NCBI GenBank assembly: GCA_018829205.1
Contig: JAHJUE010000010.1
Coordinates: 248,001 to 312,000, forward strand
Reading direction: 5' to 3'
DNA from: Bacteroidota bacterium
Lineage (GTDB): Bacteria; Bacteroidota; Ignavibacteria; Ignavibacteriales; Melioribacteraceae
Length of the DNA: 64,000 nt
Part shown: in pieces, positions 54,774-62,554 of the stretch
Position numbering within the stretch: position 1 is the stretch's first letter
How the letters are laid out: the number at the start of each line of letters is the position of its first letter
Translations under genes and position numbers: made by a program
Notes under the pieces: model-generated
Databases searched by the model: none
The model's input: the letters and a program-made list of their open reading frames with translations, nothing else
Told to the model about the DNA's origin: nothing

Positions 54774-55343
54774 ATGGAGTTAACCGATCAGGAAAAGAAA
54801 ATTTTATTAAACGCGGCGCGTGAATCAATCCGTTCAATTTTCTCAAATGAAAATCTTCCTTTAACAGATTATCAAAAGTACCCTTCTTTATTTTCGCATA
54901 AAGGCGCGTTTGTTACAATATTTAAAAATCACCTCCTTCGTGGATGCATAGGTTATATAATTTCTAATCAGCCTTTATTTGAAACGGTTTGTGAAGCCGC
55001 AATTCAAGCCGCGACCGAAGATCCTCGTTTTCCGTCTCTGACAGAAAATGAGTTCGAAAATATTGCTATTGAAATTTCCATTCTATCCGAACCGTTCGAG
55101 CTTAATTCTTATGATGAAATTGAAATTGGAAAGCATGGATTAATTTTAGAGGAAATGGGAAGACGCGCTCTGCTTCTGCCGCAAGTTCCTATTGAACATA
55201 ATTTTAATAAAGAACAATTCCTTTCGGCATTATGTCAAAAAGGAGGATTCAAATCAGATCTTTGGAAAGAAAAATTATTAAATTTAAAAATGTTCACCGC
55301 TTCGGTTTTTTCGGAAGAAGAACTGGATAATAAAAATGAATAA
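54774..55343 (+). CDS. amrA: AMMECR1 domain protein (AmmeMemoRadiSam system protein A)
   Basis: This 189-residue protein contains an AMMECR1 domain. The invariant motif LRGCIGYI follows GAFVTIFKNH, and later come EAAIQAATEDPRFPSLTENEFENIAIEISILSEP and GLILEEMGRRALLLPQVP. Its role is not firmly known; it commonly occurs with a MEMO-type dioxygenase-like protein and a radical SAM enzyme, which together may act in an RNA or small-molecule modification. Its end overlaps the MEMO gene start by 8 bp. Confidence 0.9.
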   Translation: MELTDQEKKILLNAARESIRSIFSNENLPLTDYQKYPSLFSHKGAFVTIFKNHLLRGCIGYIISNQPLFETVCEAAIQAATEDPRFPSLTENEFENIAIEISILSEPFELNSYDEIEIGKHGLILEEMGRRALLLPQVPIEHNFNKEQFLSALCQKGGFKSDLWKEKLLNLKMFTASVFSEEELDNKNE

Positions 55344-56154
55344 AATTAGAAAACCGGCGGTTGCCGGATCGTTTTACCCCGCCGAAAAAAATAAATTGAT
55401 CGATCAAATTAAACTTCTTCTCGACATTACAAAAACCAATGAAGTATATGAAAATATTTCGGGACTTGTAGCGCCGCACGCAGGATATTTGTATTCCGGC
55501 AAAACAGCAGCTTATGCGTTTAATACAATCGCCAATAAAAATTATGAAACCGTAATTATAATTTCTCCAAGTCACAGAGAATATTTTCCCGGTATCTCAA
55601 TTTATGACGGCGACGCTTATGAAACTCCTTTAGGCATTACTGAAATTAATAAATCAGTAAAGGAAAAAATAATTTCCGAAAGCAAAAATATTTTTGAAGG
55701 AATTCAAGGACATAGGAATGAACACGCAATTGAAGTAGAAATACCTTTCCTGCAAGCAGTTTTAAAAGATTTTACAATCATCCCGGTGGTAATGGGAGAT
55801 CAAAGTAAAATTTATGTAGATGAACTTTCTCAAAAACTCGCCGAAGTAATTGATGATAAAACATTAATTGTTGCCAGTTCCGATCTTTCGCATTTTTACT
55901 CGCGTAAAGAAGCACAGAAATTAGATTTAAACGTCAAAAAAAGGATTGATGATTTTGATTTCAACGGTTTACAGAATGATCTTGAATTAAAAAACAGTGA
56001 AGCCTGCGGCGGCGGATGTATTGTTTCACTGATGAAATCCGCAGAATTAAAAAATATTAAGAAGTCAAAAGTACTTTCTTATTCAGATTCCGGAGATGTA
56101 ACAAGAGACACCTCTGAAGTTGTTGGGTATCTTTCAGCGGTAATATATAATTAA
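55336..56154 (+). CDS. amrB: MEMO-family protein (AmmeMemoRadiSam system protein B)
   Basis: This 272-residue protein of the MEMO family has the probable metal ligands His48 (APHAGYLYSG), His80 (SPSHREYF) and Cys224 (EACGGGCIV), with SSDLSHFYS (185 region) also conserved. The family fold resembles extradiol dioxygenases, and the human homologue is reported to bind copper or iron. It begins KPAVAGSFYPAEKNKL, as in system B proteins. It overlaps the AMMECR1 gene by 8 bp. The radical SAM partner expected in this system is not in the window. Confidence 0.92.
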   Translation: MNKIRKPAVAGSFYPAEKNKLIDQIKLLLDITKTNEVYENISGLVAPHAGYLYSGKTAAYAFNTIANKNYETVIIISPSHREYFPGISIYDGDAYETPLGITEINKSVKEKIISESKNIFEGIQGHRNEHAIEVEIPFLQAVLKDFTIIPVVMGDQSKIYVDELSQKLAEVIDDKTLIVASSDLSHFYSRKEAQKLDLNVKKRIDDFDFNGLQNDLELKNSEACGGGCIVSLMKSAELKNIKKSKVLSYSDSGDVTRDTSEVVGYLSAVIYN

Positions 56155-56160
56155 ATTAAT

Positions 56161-56301
56161 ATGCCAAAACCCGTAAATAATCAATATGACATTTCAAAAC
56201 TACATGAAAGACAACAATTCGCTAATAATTATTCGGAAATTAAAGAAATTATTATTCCTCCTCTGAAAAAATTAAAAAAAGCCTTATATTTGTGCCTTTA
56301 A
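56161..56301 (+). pseudogene. Short open frame, possible gene remnant
   Basis: A 46-codon frame starts at ATG 56161, six bases after the MEMO stop, and ends in TAA 56299-56301, immediately before a 65-bp palindromic repeat. The composition looks coding at its start (MPKPVNNQYDISKLHERQQF), but it is unlike any small protein I know and ends in a lysine-rich, hydrophobic tail. It may be the 5' end of a third gene of the amr operon cut by the repeat, or a genuine tiny protein. No ribosome binding site is obvious. Confidence 0.3.
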
Positions 56302-56305
56302 CAAA

Positions 56306-56370
56306 GTCATGCTTTGCCCCTGTCTAACGGCAGGCAGGTCCGCTCATGCTTCGACTTCGCTCAGCATGAC
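56306..56370. repeat. 65-bp palindromic intergenic repeat element
   Basis: The element is bounded by an 8-bp inverted repeat, GTCATGCT (56306-56313) and AGCATGAC (56363-56370). Inside are a CCTG...CAGGCAGG hairpin-forming part and TCATGC-TTCGACTTCGCTCA-GCATGA, a second hairpin. It is GC-richer than its surroundings. Similar GCATGCTGAGCGAAG-type sequences are dispersed in many Bacteroidota and relatives. It probably spread as a non-autonomous (REP/MITE-like) element. Confidence 0.65.
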
Positions 56371-56388
56371 AATGTGAAATTTTGCAAT

Positions 56389-56412
56389 TTGTAATCTTGT
56401 AATCTTGTAATC
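56389..56412. repeat. Three tandem 8-bp repeats (TTGTAATC)
   Basis: Three perfect copies of TTGTAATC lie end to end between the palindromic repeat and the glyS ribosome binding site. Too short and too few for a CRISPR array; a slippage-prone microsatellite that may sit in the glyS promoter or leader. Confidence 0.8.
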
Positions 56413-56436
56413 TGAAATTATAAAGAGAGGTTTACC

Positions 56437-57924
56437 ATCGCACAGAAGAATAACAAAAACGACATTGTTGAAAAGGTAGTTTCGCTTGCAAAGCGGAAAG
56501 GATTCGTATTTCAATCGAGTGAAATTTACGGCGGTTTAAACGGCTGCTGGGATTACGGTCCTTTAGGCGTAGAGCTGCTTAGAAATATAAAGGAAGAATG
56601 GTGGAAGTTTATGACCTACCGCGAAGATGTGGAGGGTTTGGATGCGTCTATTCTTATGCATCGCAGAGTTTGGGAAGCGTCGGGTCACGTCGATAACTTC
56701 TCTGATCCGATGATTGACTGTAAACAATGTAAATCACGTTTTAGGGTTGATACTCTCGGCGACGCGATTAACGAAAAGAAAAAAGAAAAATTTGTAAAAG
56801 CACTTGAAGAAAAAATTGATGGCGCTGATAAAAAATCCGCGCTTGAAAATATTTATCAAATTCACGCGGAGCTTGAACCTAGATTTGAAGCTATATTGGA
56901 AAGTGATGTGCTAAGTAAAGATTTATTGATTGAAATTAATTGCCCGAATTGCGGAACAGCGGGACAATTCACGGAACCCCGCAGTTTTAATCTTATGTTT
57001 AAAACATTTGTTGGTCCGGTTGAAAGCACCGATAATGTAGTTTTCCTGCGCCCGGAAACAGCGCAGGGAATTTTTGTTAATTTCTTAAACGTTCAGGGAG
57101 CCAGCAGGCAAAAGCTGCCATTCGGTATTGCTCAAATAGGTAAGGCATTCCGTAATGAAATTAATACGAAAAATTTTCTTTTCCGTACACGCGAATTTGA
57201 ACAGATGGAAATGCAGTATTTCGTTCAGCCCGAAGACGATAAAAAACATTATGATGAATGGAAAGAAAGACGTATAAACTGGTTTAAAGAATTAGGCATG
57301 ACTCCCGATAAGCTGCGTTTTCACGATCACCCGGCGGATAAGCTTGCCCATTACGCTAAAGAAGCTACCGACATTGAATATGAATTCCCTTTCGGCTGGG
57401 GCGAAATTGAGGGCATACATAACAGAACTAATTTTGATTTAAGCAGACATGAAGAATTTTCGGGCAAATCACTTAAGTATTTCGATGAGGAAAAGAAAGA
57501 AAAATATCTTCCTTTTATAATTGAAACAAGCGCGGGTGCAAGCCGTTCGTTTATGGCATTTTTTGTCGACGCTTATAATGAAGAAGAAGTAAATGGCGAA
57601 ACAAGGGTTGTATTAAAATTCCATCCTAAACTCGCGCCGATAAAAGCAGCCATATTCCCTCTTGTAAATAAAGACGGAATGCCGGAAATAGCGCGCAAAA
57701 TTGAAACTGATCTTCGTCCGTATTTAAAAGTATTTTATGACGACAAAGGCGCTGTCGGCAGACGTTACCGCAGACAGGATGAAAACGGAACACCCTTCTG
57801 TATTACAGTTGACACACAAACACTTGAAGATAATACGGTAACTGTCCGTGAAAGAGATTCAATGTTGCAGGAAAGAATCTCAATCGATAAACTGCTAATT
57901 CATCTCCTCCAAAAATTAAAATAA
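56437..57924 (+). CDS. glyS: Glycyl-tRNA synthetase (alpha2 type), apparent ATC start
   Basis: This 495-residue class II synthetase charges tRNA-Gly. The first ATG in frame (56611) would delete about 58 conserved residues, including GFVFQSSEIYGGLNGCWDYGPLGVELLRNIK. Reading back, the frame is open to a TGA at 56413-56415 and has no ATG, GTG or TTG. The ATC at 56437 has GAGAGG six bases upstream and would give (M)AQKNN, so I take it as the start. Class II motifs: RPETAQGIFVNF, FLFRTREFEQMEMQYF (motif 2), ETSAGASRSFMAF (motif 3 region). The anticodon-binding domain ends with DTQTLEDNTVTVRERDSM. A terminator follows. Confidence 0.88.
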   Translation: MAQKNNKNDIVEKVVSLAKRKGFVFQSSEIYGGLNGCWDYGPLGVELLRNIKEEWWKFMTYREDVEGLDASILMHRRVWEASGHVDNFSDPMIDCKQCKSRFRVDTLGDAINEKKKEKFVKALEEKIDGADKKSALENIYQIHAELEPRFEAILESDVLSKDLLIEINCPNCGTAGQFTEPRSFNLMFKTFVGPVESTDNVVFLRPETAQGIFVNFLNVQGASRQKLPFGIAQIGKAFRNEINTKNFLFRTREFEQMEMQYFVQPEDDKKHYDEWKERRINWFKELGMTPDKLRFHDHPADKLAHYAKEATDIEYEFPFGWGEIEGIHNRTNFDLSRHEEFSGKSLKYFDEEKKEKYLPFIIETSAGASRSFMAFFVDAYNEEEVNGETRVVLKFHPKLAPIKAAIFPLVNKDGMPEIARKIETDLRPYLKVFYDDKGAVGRRYRRQDENGTPFCITVDTQTLEDNTVTVRERDSMLQERISIDKLLIHLLQKLK

Positions 57925-58158: not shown

Positions 58159-60396
58159 ATGAAGACAAGGATTTGTTTTATATCCGCTGTTTTAATCATC
58201 CTGCTTTCAAAACCTTTGTTTGCCGGCTTTAATGCTCAAAAGTTAAACTCATATCAATCATGGTGGATAACCGAAATTCAAAAATTTGAAAGTAAAACAG
58301 AGGTATACGGCCTGTTATATCAAAGCAGCATTAATGTAAAATTGAAACTAGGAAAAGATTCGTGGTGGGAATACAATACTCAAAAATATATTTGTCAAAA
58401 TCCCCCTGCCGGGAAGTATGAATTCAGATGGAATTTTAACCTTCCTAAAAATGCGTATGTGAAAGATCTGCTCTATTGGGATAAGGAAAAAGACACATTT
58501 GTAAGCGCCTCGGTTATTGATTTAACTACTGCCGAGAATAACTACTACGCAAATAGGGAGGATTCGGCCTCCGTACTTCTTAGGCAATATATGAGAAGAG
58601 ATTATAACGGCAATTATAATCTAGAATACGAACTAAAAATATCTCCCGTTAACTGGGACGAAACAGTTGAGTTTATAATTAAATACGTTTCCCCCTGTGA
58701 AATGTATTACGATAAAAGAGTCGTAAACGATTATTCGTATCAGTTCTATTCCGAAAATTATAATTATTACACTCAATGCAACAATACTGTTCCAGAAAAA
58801 ATATTAACCATAGATTATAACAATCCTGATGCAGCCCCGCAAAATTTTCAAACCAACGGAATTCAATGGGACAATGGACAATCCTGGACAAAAAACGGAG
58901 ATTATTGGCAAGCTGCAATCTCCAAAAATTATAATCAATTTAGTTTATCATTAGCAGCTGAAAACGCGGACGGAAAATTTTTAAGAACATATCCCGCGGG
59001 AAACAGTAATTTTTATCAGCTGTCAGCGCTTCCTCAAATAAAAGATGAAATACGATATCCACGAAAAATAGTTTTGGCTTTCGATTTAATTCAGAATTAT
59101 TTCAATTCCTATTCAAGAGAAAACTTTATTAAAATGATTAATGAGGCTTTGCTGATCTCTACAACTGAAAAAGACTCATTGCTTTTTGTAACAAGCGACT
59201 TTGACGTAAAGTGGCTTAATAATAATTTTGAGCAAAGAACAGAAAATCTATTAAATATACATTTAAACACTGTTGTACAGACTGTACCCAAACTAAATAC
59301 CCTACCTTATATGCTGAAAGATATTGTTAAATTCTTAAACTTAAAAAATGAAGATGCCGAAGTATGGATTATATCGGATGATAACAAAACCGGTGTAAGA
59401 GCCGAGACGGTAATGGAACTATTAAATCAAACTTATTTCAGCGCGGATAATAAGATTAAATTTAATATTATTGACGTAAGCAACTCATACAACAGTTATT
59501 ATATACAAAATAAAAATTACCGCGGCAATGAATACTTGTATGAAAATTTATCCAGGATATCGGGCGGTAATTTTGGTAGTACTTATAATACTTATTATAA
59601 ATTATATATTGATAAAGTACTAGACTGCTTTGCTCCTACGGTAAGCACAGTTGAAATTGATCCTGTGCCTGAGGCTGGAATTTCTTATTCACGATTTGAT
59701 TTAAATAAAGGACGCAACAGTTTTAACATCACATCACGTTATTTCGAAATCGGCATGTTCGATGGTTCGGCCCCGTTTACCGTAAATTATTTCGGGAATT
59801 ATCTCAGCGGCAGCTACTTCAATAATATTAATATTGTTGAAGACAATACAAACATATCCGAGGATATTCTTGAAAACACTTTGTTGTATTGGTACGGGAA
59901 TTATATTCTTAACGAACTCTTTCTTCAGCCGCAAAGTTATTCTACTATAAAATATATTGAAAACCTTGCTGTTATAAATCATTTAATGACACCATACAGC
60001 GGATTTATTATACCCGGACCTACAGGCTCAGCTGGTTTTAAAAGATTAGAAATTGAGGATGTTACTGATGTTAAAGAGGTTCCCCCAATTAATGAAAAAG
60101 AACTTCCTGTAAATATTGGTCTTACGGCTTATCCTAATCCTTTTAATCCGCAGACTAGCATAATCATTAATTTAACAACAGCTGCGGCAACCGGATCAAA
60201 AACATTGGCAATTTATAATGTGCTCGGACAAAAAATAAGAAGTTTTGATTTATCCGGGTATAATAATTTATCTCAAATAAAAGTTGATTGGAACGGACTT
60301 AACGATTATGGTTCACAAGTATCATCCGGCACCTACATTGCGGTATTAAAAACTAATGAATCCATTACATCGTTAAAACTTCTTCTAATTCGTTAA
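58159..60396 (+). CDS. Secreted VIT/VWA-like protein with C-terminal sorting domain
   Basis: This 745-residue protein has a signal peptide (cut near FAG, residue 23). A VIT-like region (about 60-190) contains FRWNFNLPKNAYVKDLLYWDKEKDTFVSASVID. A weak VWA-like region (about 300-470) has KIVLAFDLIQNYF and EVWIISDDN, and the segment typical of the end of VIT/VWA proteins is MTPYSGFII (610-618). The last 88 residues start YPNPFNPQTSI (658-668) and end SSGTYIAVLKTN...KLLLIR, a type 9 secretion or FlgD-like sorting domain. It should be exported to the cell surface. The next gene is a paralogue, 28 bp on. VWA metal site residues are degenerate. Confidence 0.75.
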   Translation: MKTRICFISAVLIILLSKPLFAGFNAQKLNSYQSWWITEIQKFESKTEVYGLLYQSSINVKLKLGKDSWWEYNTQKYICQNPPAGKYEFRWNFNLPKNAYVKDLLYWDKEKDTFVSASVIDLTTAENNYYANREDSASVLLRQYMRRDYNGNYNLEYELKISPVNWDETVEFIIKYVSPCEMYYDKRVVNDYSYQFYSENYNYYTQCNNTVPEKILTIDYNNPDAAPQNFQTNGIQWDNGQSWTKNGDYWQAAISKNYNQFSLSLAAENADGKFLRTYPAGNSNFYQLSALPQIKDEIRYPRKIVLAFDLIQNYFNSYSRENFIKMINEALLISTTEKDSLLFVTSDFDVKWLNNNFEQRTENLLNIHLNTVVQTVPKLNTLPYMLKDIVKFLNLKNEDAEVWIISDDNKTGVRAETVMELLNQTYFSADNKIKFNIIDVSNSYNSYYIQNKNYRGNEYLYENLSRISGGNFGSTYNTYYKLYIDKVLDCFAPTVSTVEIDPVPEAGISYSRFDLNKGRNSFNITSRYFEIGMFDGSAPFTVNYFGNYLSGSYFNNINIVEDNTNISEDILENTLLYWYGNYILNELFLQPQSYSTIKYIENLAVINHLMTPYSGFIIPGPTGSAGFKRLEIEDVTDVKEVPPINEKELPVNIGLTAYPNPFNPQTSIIINLTTAAATGSKTLAIYNVLGQKIRSFDLSGYNNLSQIKVDWNGLNDYGSQVSSGTYIAVLKTNESITSLKLLLIR

Positions 60397-60424
60397 TTAT
60401 AAATTTTATTTGACAGGGAAAAAA

Positions 60425-62554
60425 ATGAAAAATTTATTGTTTATAATATTGTTGATTACAGTTGTTTCAATAAACGCTACGGAATTTTCGGTTTATGAAG
60501 CCAATTACCCAAACGTAAAAGATTATAATGTAAATATTGATGAAGCAACAATTGTAATAAAGCCTGCCGGTAATTATGTTGAGTTTAATCTTTACATGAC
60601 CGTATCATATGATTTTCAAAGCTGGTTTTTTAAAAATTATAACGAGCTTGAGTTTAACTGGCAGTTTAATCTTCCCGAAGAAGCTGTTGTGCATGAATTC
60701 TGGTACTGGGAAGGTGATTCAATAATTGCCGCCGAAGTTTTAGATAAATGGACCGCTGAATTATTATTCAGCGACGTTAGCACACCTTTCAGAAACCCGG
60801 GTTTATTAACACAAGGAAACGCAAACAGCGACGGCCAGGTACAGCATCAATTAAAATTATTCCCTATTAAAAGAAATGAAAAAAGAAGATTTAAAATTCA
60901 ATATTTACTGCCGGGGAGACCAACGGGAAATAATTTGCGCGTATGGCTGCCGATGTCACAATTAATTTCTGAGAAAACACCGGGAATTGATAAATTAAAA
61001 ATTCTTTATCTGTACGGCGACACAAAATATGAACCGGGAATTATCGGCACAGAAATATTATCATCAAAAGACAACCATGATTTAAATAGATGGGATATTG
61101 AGATTCCAATTGAGTATGATCAGTTTGTCGAATTGGAACTTCCTTCGCCGATAAAAGATGAAGTATTTTTTACCACGTTCGAAAGAAACGGTGAAAATTT
61201 TTATCACCTTGCGGTTTATCCCCCCGAGGTACCTCGGGTTGCCAACCCTCGTAACGTATTATTTGTAATTGACTACAATAGATTTAATACAAAGGATTTG
61301 GACGGTGATTTTCTGCTTTCATATCTGAAAGAATCAGTTCAGCAGGCCTTCTCCGAATACGACTCAATTAATGTTATTGCCGCTTACGATAATATAGTGT
61401 ACGGCTCATCAAATTGGATTTCCGCAACTAAGGAAGGTGTTGATGAATTGTTCACAAATGTTATGATGAGGTCGTTGCCGAGCTACAATAATCTTCTTCC
61501 CCTAATTACCGAAGCAACAAATTTTATTAATACGCAAAATGATTCTTGCGAAGTTTTATTCATAACAAATACAAATACGATTAATTTAGGCGAAGAAGAT
61601 AAGAATCAACTCGCGGATCAAATAATATCAAAATTCAAACCGGGTACAAAAATTAATTTTTTTGATTTGGATAATAAATCTTACTTAAGATACAACAACG
61701 GATATTATGAAACACAAATGCAGTCGTTTTACGGAAGAATTGCTCATCCATCTTCAGGAAATTTATTTTTCCTAAGATATAATTCATTAAAAGAAATGCT
61801 TTATTCATTTTTATACGATGAAATTAGCCACTTTGAAAGTGTTGAAGTCCAGATGAGATTTCAGCAGGGTTACGCGCACAGCAAACATTTTATTGCTTTG
61901 CATGAAGGTTATTATCCGATGCACACACCAATAATGCAGATTGGGAAATTCCAGGGGGAACTGCCGGTTGATATTACTGTATTCGGAAAGTATAAATTAA
62001 ATAATGCCAAATATACATCCACATTAACCGAAGCAAATGTTGTTGCGGGGAACAATCAAATAGCAACTGCATGGTACGGCGCGCATCTTAAAACATTATT
62101 AAGACTCCCTTACAGTCCGCTTACCGTTGCCGATATTATTGATCTAAGCTTGGAACAGAAAATCTTAACTCCGTATTCCGGCTTCTTGGTTTTCCAGCCT
62201 GATGAAAATCACGGTTATTGCGACGACTGCGACGATAATAGCGGAGGTTTACCAACTTCTATTGAAGAAGAAGATTCCACATTAATTTTTGATGTAACCG
62301 CATTTCCAAATCCGTTTAATCCTTCAACTACAATAAACTATATTCTGCCCGAAGCAGGGTTTGTAGCGATAAAGGTTTTTAATATACTCGGAGAAACTGT
62401 CGCTGAACTTGTTAATGAAAATCAAATAATGGGAAAATATTCGGCCGTATTTAACGGAAGCGGTCTTTCTTCAGGAATTTATATTTTAACGATTACATTC
62501 GAAGGTAATACTAAAAGTTATTTTAAAACAAAAAAATTGCTCTTAGTCAAATAA
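60425..62554 (+). CDS. Secreted VIT/VWA-like protein with C-terminal sorting domain (paralogue)
   Basis: This 709-residue paralogue of the previous gene has a signal peptide ending near NATE. Its VIT-like region (about 40-180) has FNWQFNLPEEAVVHEFWYWEGDSIIAAEVLDKWTAE. A VWA-like region has RNVLFVIDYNRFNTKDLDGDFLLSYLKESVQQAF (about 275-310) and LPLITEATNFI. LTPYSGFLVFQPDE (581-594) is the usual VIT/VWA tail motif. The sorting domain starts FPNPFNPSTTINYILPE (627-643) and ends YILTITFEGNTKSYFKTKKLLLVK. I use ATG 60425 with a CAGGGA site rather than TTG 60410. A terminator follows. A DDCDD stretch at about residue 600 could bind calcium. Confidence 0.78.
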   Translation: MKNLLFIILLITVVSINATEFSVYEANYPNVKDYNVNIDEATIVIKPAGNYVEFNLYMTVSYDFQSWFFKNYNELEFNWQFNLPEEAVVHEFWYWEGDSIIAAEVLDKWTAELLFSDVSTPFRNPGLLTQGNANSDGQVQHQLKLFPIKRNEKRRFKIQYLLPGRPTGNNLRVWLPMSQLISEKTPGIDKLKILYLYGDTKYEPGIIGTEILSSKDNHDLNRWDIEIPIEYDQFVELELPSPIKDEVFFTTFERNGENFYHLAVYPPEVPRVANPRNVLFVIDYNRFNTKDLDGDFLLSYLKESVQQAFSEYDSINVIAAYDNIVYGSSNWISATKEGVDELFTNVMMRSLPSYNNLLPLITEATNFINTQNDSCEVLFITNTNTINLGEEDKNQLADQIISKFKPGTKINFFDLDNKSYLRYNNGYYETQMQSFYGRIAHPSSGNLFFLRYNSLKEMLYSFLYDEISHFESVEVQMRFQQGYAHSKHFIALHEGYYPMHTPIMQIGKFQGELPVDITVFGKYKLNNAKYTSTLTEANVVAGNNQIATAWYGAHLKTLLRLPYSPLTVADIIDLSLEQKILTPYSGFLVFQPDENHGYCDDCDDNSGGLPTSIEEEDSTLIFDVTAFPNPFNPSTTINYILPEAGFVAIKVFNILGETVAELVNENQIMGKYSAVFNGSGLSSGIYILTITFEGNTKSYFKTKKLLLVK

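Follow-up and report, generated by a model that had tools for sequence, protein, structure and literature searches.

How translation of an essential aminoacyl-tRNA synthetase begins when its reading frame offers none of the usual start codons is the question raised by glyS in the window, the 64,000-nucleotide stretch of a Melioribacteraceae contig that was analysed here. On the forward strand, the glyS frame is closed upstream by a TGA (56413-56415), after which the sequence reads AAT TAT AAA GAG AGG TTT ACC ATC GCA CAG AAG AAT AAC, with the ATC at 56437-56439. Reading of the frame found no ATG, GTG or TTG between this stop and the ATG at 56611-56613, the first in-frame canonical start codon, which is too internal to serve as a start. 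A Shine-Dalgarno (SD) motif, GAGAGGT, occupies 56425-56431; its GAGAGG (56425-56430) lies 6 nt upstream of the ATC and its core GAGGT ends 5 nt before it. Read from the ATC, the coding sequence spans 56437-57924 (495 codons plus TAA), and the open frame as a whole is unbroken across 502 codons. The product is a glycine--tRNA ligase (GlyRS) of the dimeric type (PRK04173, 668.4 bits with a cut-off of 312; TIGR00389, 545.1 bits with a cut-off of 243.3). The PRK04173 match begins at profile position 2, which corresponds to residue 19 of the 502-residue open frame, 11 residues past the ATC codon and well upstream of the ATG at 56611. A search of the genome for a second glyS gave only a partial match with 30% identity. 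An earlier note on this DNA had proposed an AUC start from the upstream stop, the GAGAGG six bases before the ATC and the AQKN codons that follow it, and had held that the conserved N-terminal sequence is encoded upstream of the first ATG; the coordinates, the lack of a canonical codon and the N-terminal extent all proved correct.

Elsewhere in the window, two adjoining genes upstream of glyS (54774-56154) look from their sequences to be of the AMMECR1 and MEMO types, which is our assumption. Two neighbouring large proteins of similar layout (58159-60396 and 60410-62554) each end in a PNPFNP-type region that we take to be a secretion sorting domain.

The comparison of glyS 5' regions among relatives that the earlier note had suggested showed that ATC is kept at this place together with an SD, with ATA and ATT as rare variants (we use AUH for an ATC, ATA or ATT start codon). 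The family of the source genome, which holds Melioribacter MAGs, gave a GlyRS match in 75 of 79 genomes, one of these weak, and the order as a whole in 155 of 164. We read the 5' ends of 70 loci from the source family, 55 from a second family of the order (20 further genomes of that family with a glyS match were left out of the count) and five from a third. In-frame codons were scanned from 30 to 5 codons upstream of a conserved anchor, and an SD was called where at least 4 nt matched the anti-SD complement and ended 4-10 nt before the codon; some calls are 4-mers. By this rule, AUH with an SD was found in 64/70, 28/55 and 5/5 loci of the three families. The 64 loci of the source family divide into 33 whose scanned stretch is free of canonical codons and 31 that also have a canonical codon lacking an SD; the remaining loci of that family have canonical codons, four with an SD and two without. 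In the second family, 27 loci have AUH with an SD (12 of them with no canonical codon), one has both kinds, with a competing TTG plus SD, and 27 are canonical; two of the 28 AUH loci (L191 and L206) are doubtful.

The class of AUH with an SD has the SD in its own definition, and the counts independent of it are those of loci with no canonical codon in the scanned stretch, where an SD was present in 46/46 (33, 12 and 1 loci in the three families). In the source genome, the same signal precedes 37% of 638 ORFs that start with ATG and 10% of random positions within genes. When the whole frame from the upstream stop to the anchor is considered, canonical codons are absent from 31 loci of the source family, including the window and one locus truncated by a contig end (L131), and from 10 of the second family (41 in all). 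The stop adjoins the SD or the ATC itself in several relatives (TAG AGG TGT ATC ATC GCA; TGA ATC ATC GCA), so that no upstream start is possible in that frame of these genomes. The glyS 5' ends of members of the source family recur in MAG records assigned to Melioribacteraceae and Melioribacter sp. A few genomes of that family, some near complete, had no match to this GlyRS (G018, G043, G044, G061) or a weak one (G064), and they may use another glycyl-tRNA synthetase. One genome of the second family (G101) carries two near full-length GlyRS genes (C27:915-2384 and C93:2219-3652; 79% and 77% identity to that of the window), either a second copy or contamination.

Codon usage at this position is that of a start rather than of an inner isoleucine codon. 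Among the AUH rows of the source family that were placed on a tree, ATC accounts for 58/62 and ATA for 4/62, whereas ATC makes up 15.5% of inner isoleucine codons of glyS and does not exceed 44% in any one of 12 conserved isoleucine columns. One conserved isoleucine column nevertheless reaches 81% of a single codon, and codon constancy alone is therefore not decisive. Taken with the SD and the frames that are closed upstream, the sequence comparisons show that the glyS ATC behaves as a start, unlike an inner isoleucine codon, and AUC initiation of glyS is well supported at the sequence level.

The state is favoured in these lineages but dispensable, because canonical glyS starts occur in 6/70 loci of the source family and 27/55 of the second. 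A quick GlyRS tree was built from 166 of the 169 classified rows (short ones dropped), of which 163 were scored, with L191, L206 and a doubtful locus from outside the order (L341) left unscored; on this tree the glyS start changed between AUH and canonical at least 14 times. Within the class, 39 loci were read outside the order. AUH with an SD occurred there in families f19 (7/7), f24 (2/2) and f14 (1/1), the single doubtful locus belongs to f6, and the other 28 have canonical glyS starts. In the f19 (L295-L298, L326, L327, L331), f24 (L333, L337) and f14 (L330) loci, the SD before the AUH is strong and often reads AGAAAGGAG, and 9-17 codons downstream lies an in-frame ATG lacking an SD. These cases could have arisen separately, could be remnants or could offer a choice between two starts; the class-level counts do not tell gain from loss of AUH.

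The gene for initiation factor IF3, infC, has its start at the same kind of site. IF3 was present in 54 of 57 genomes of the source family that were searched, and we read the 30 best-scoring infC loci from each of the source and second families, with starts found by walking the frame (L240 and L227 by the rule above). AUH with an SD was found in 30/30 and 27/30, respectively; two others of the second family have AUH lacking an SD, and one has a canonical codon. In the source genome, infC (G000:C8:11203-11706) begins GAGAGGTTATATATCGCTCAA and glyS begins GAGAGGTTTACCATCGCACAG. The two share the AUC start, the SD core and its spacing, and the second and third residues, and neither has a canonical alternative. 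The 19-nt pattern GAGGTNNNNNATHGCNCAR has exactly two matches in the 4.59 Mb genome, glyS and infC, and a control with the reversed pattern gave none in the same genome. The comparisons between genes and genomes thus establish the AUH start, its conservation and an initiation site common to infC and glyS. The genes differ in that AUH has been lost from glyS in several lineages and from infC in at most 1 of the 60 loci read. They differ also in that infC is autoregulated, whereas glyS is not the gene of IF3 and its control would come from the level of another protein. The textbook case of an AUU or AUC start is infC itself, with ATT in Escherichia coli and ATC in Streptomyces (PMC5472188).

A coding-potential screen for genes whose signal extends upstream beyond the first canonical start covered 1,624,589 bases (35.4% of the genome) and 1,183 predicted genes. 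It ranked infC first and glyS second, followed by two frameshifted genes, with rsgA sixth. Ten genes scored at least 4 bits. Five of these have at least 35 upstream codons, namely infC, glyS, rsgA and the two frameshifted genes; the remaining five have 7-18 upstream codons, each ending in ATG. The frameshifted genes were rejected as AUH candidates, the upstream parts being in another frame. They lie on the minus strand (L265:4178-4642, G000:C15:64178-64642, and L381:2490-3647, G000:C39:182490-183647), are presumably ParA-like and GAF-like, respectively, and are either pseudogenes or assembly errors. A canonical codon close to the true start makes the screen insensitive, and further AUH genes may exist in the genome. 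In an earlier, simpler screen, the next canonical codon lay at least 20 codons on in 46% of genes, and 21% of genes reached the score of that version. The idea that this genome is lax about start codons in general was rejected for the 35.4% screened. The poly(A) polymerase family (PolyA_pol, PF01743) was considered as a further AUH gene; this found no support, a canonical codon being present near the start in 26/27 loci of the source family by a lenient test.

Besides infC and glyS, the third gene with a long upstream extension (39 codons) is rsgA, which encodes a GTPase of 30S maturation (NCBIfam TIGR00157). It lies outside the window on the minus strand (L313:14663-15682; G000:C15:394663-395682), lacks a canonical codon in the vicinity of its start, and its SD in the source genome is weak (GGTG). 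We read the 30 best-scoring rsgA loci from each of the source and second families and two from the third, and AUH with an SD was found in 28/30, 25/30 and 2/2 (55/62), of which 53 have it at the aligned place and two (L394 and L398) have the SD at a different codon. The aligned column itself is AUH in 57/62 (18 ATA, 22 ATT and 17 ATC). At least 28 third-base changes were counted there on the tree, and none gave ATG; the third-base counts exclude rows whose aligned codon is not AUN (5/62 for rsgA, 6/60 for infC). If the changes had drawn G at its share of fourfold sites (0.178), the chance of no G in 28 changes would be near 0.004, a rough figure given that the rows are related. The rsgA copies share 50-63% identity with the query, and outside the order a match was found in 18 of 28 genomes of the class, at 30-41% identity.

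The glyS leader was considered as another seat of control. A candidate promoter box of the TAnnTTTG type is present as TATATTTG at 56285-56292 on the forward strand, 144 nt before the ATC, and a dispersed repeat with 17 further partial matches in the genome (56307-56420) lies between this box and the start. In the source family, the box lies within 80 nt of the start in 50/64 AUH loci and ends 22-44 nt before it in 47/64, so that in most relatives the leader has little space for control of another kind. A search of 56100-56700 for known RNA families, T-box or other, gave only two Rfam matches at chance level (E 0.6 and 0.87), far below the gathering thresholds, and no unusual folding was found in the leader (z-score -0.90). 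Control of glyS by a leader RNA was rejected on these grounds.

Three other readings would do away with AUC initiation altogether. Translation might begin at an in-frame TTG or GTG that immediately precedes AGG (NTG AGG TTT GTC ATC), with ATC as an inner codon, as could be supposed from the 31/70 loci of the source family that have a canonical codon in addition to AUH with an SD, often a TTG or GTG four codons upstream. Such a codon is absent from the window and from 30 other loci of the family and is replaced by a stop at or near that position in others. Where present, it lacks an SD and is constant only at its third base, which is part of GAGG, and the constancy of the ATC is far beyond that of an inner isoleucine codon of glyS. 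We consider this reading very unlikely and reject these codons as the main start; in the 31 of 64 AUH loci concerned, the in-frame TTG, GTG or ATG lacking an SD is possible as a minor start. An out-of-frame upstream start with frameshifting, or a shorter enzyme from the ATG at 56611, is more improbable still. An ATG in some frame between -24 and +17 occurs in 11/64 AUH loci of the source family, yet it is absent from the other 53, and a protein begun at 56611 would miss about 57 residues covered by the family profile. The earlier note had named a G-to-C assembly error as the main alternative, and a single base change would indeed turn the ATC into ATG. An error, or a glyS broken in the source genome, has a negligible probability given the intact frame, and ATC at this place in many independently assembled genomes of the family, with GlyRS at 70-85% protein identity, rules out the assembly error.

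A different objection accepts the AUC start and sees in it a weak start of fixed strength, which limits GlyRS (and RsgA) to low levels with no meaningful regulation by IF3. The sequence evidence for this reading equals that for IF3 control, and glyS has moved to ATG or GTG in several lineages with no visible penalty. On the other hand, the glyS site is that of infC and is found nowhere else in the genome, and the aligned codon of rsgA takes any AUH and never AUG, a pattern suggesting that AUG is avoided rather than that one strength is set. In addition, IF3 acts generally on such codons (PMC5472188). We thus regard a fixed weak start as unlikely. Initiation of glyS at AUC, aided by its SD and throttled by IF3 as for infC, is the reading that we hold to be probable. 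The initiator tRNA would begin translation at the AUC codon and the strong SD would compensate for weak codon-anticodon pairing, while IF3 would reject codons of this type and so throttle glyS as it does infC. Output of glyS, infC and rsgA would then go up as IF3 becomes scarce in relation to 30S subunits, and down as it becomes plentiful. Given the likeness of the sites, the response of infC to IF3 is to be expected of glyS and rsgA as well, and most likely they share the IF3-discriminated initiation of infC. The earlier note's suggestion of IF3 control has gained from this likeness between the sites; the IF3 sensitivity of glyS, the feedback and its purpose are what we infer from it. Nonetheless, an AUC codon should initiate weakly, and GlyRS is nevertheless essential.

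Few bacterial genes besides infC are, to our knowledge, known to have start codons discriminated by IF3. One AUH-type start outside infC, which the earlier note had also cited, is the AUU of E. coli pcnB, in a gene different from glyS. Among the open-licence literature matches listed, titles and abstract openings made no mention of an AUC-start glyS or rsgA. A closer parallel is sigR of Streptomyces, whose GTC start is repressed by IF3 (PMC5472188). Like glyS, it has a non-canonical start outside infC with an SD (an extensive one in sigR), kept in relatives. The two differ in codon and product (GUC and a sigma factor in sigR, AUC and a translation enzyme in glyS) and in reach, the sigR start being reported within one genus and the glyS AUH occurring across three families; the IF3 dependence has been demonstrated for sigR, whereas that of glyS is presumed from its site. 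The same source states that the totality of genes with IF3-discriminated starts is not known because starts are predicted from ATG, GTG and TTG.

GTP-bound RsgA promotes the release of RbfA from 30S subunits, which IF3 can also achieve (PMC9032327), and common control of infC and rsgA would therefore make sense. Whether the order has a conserved regulon read by IF3, comprising at least infC, glyS and rsgA, is in our judgement an evenly balanced matter. In such a regulon, AUH starts would tie translation to the ratio of 30S subunits to IF3 and would couple 30S maturation (RsgA), initiation (IF3) and the charging of tRNA-Gly (GlyRS) by start-codon discrimination alone, with no leader RNA or repressor. 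Gene finders that accept no start codons but ATG, GTG and TTG would truncate these genes. An essential aminoacyl-tRNA synthetase and a GTPase of 30S maturation with such starts across an order of little-studied bacteria, where infC has a site of the same kind, make a natural candidate for an IF3 regulon that is directly testable, and suggest that control by IF3 reaches more genes than previously thought.
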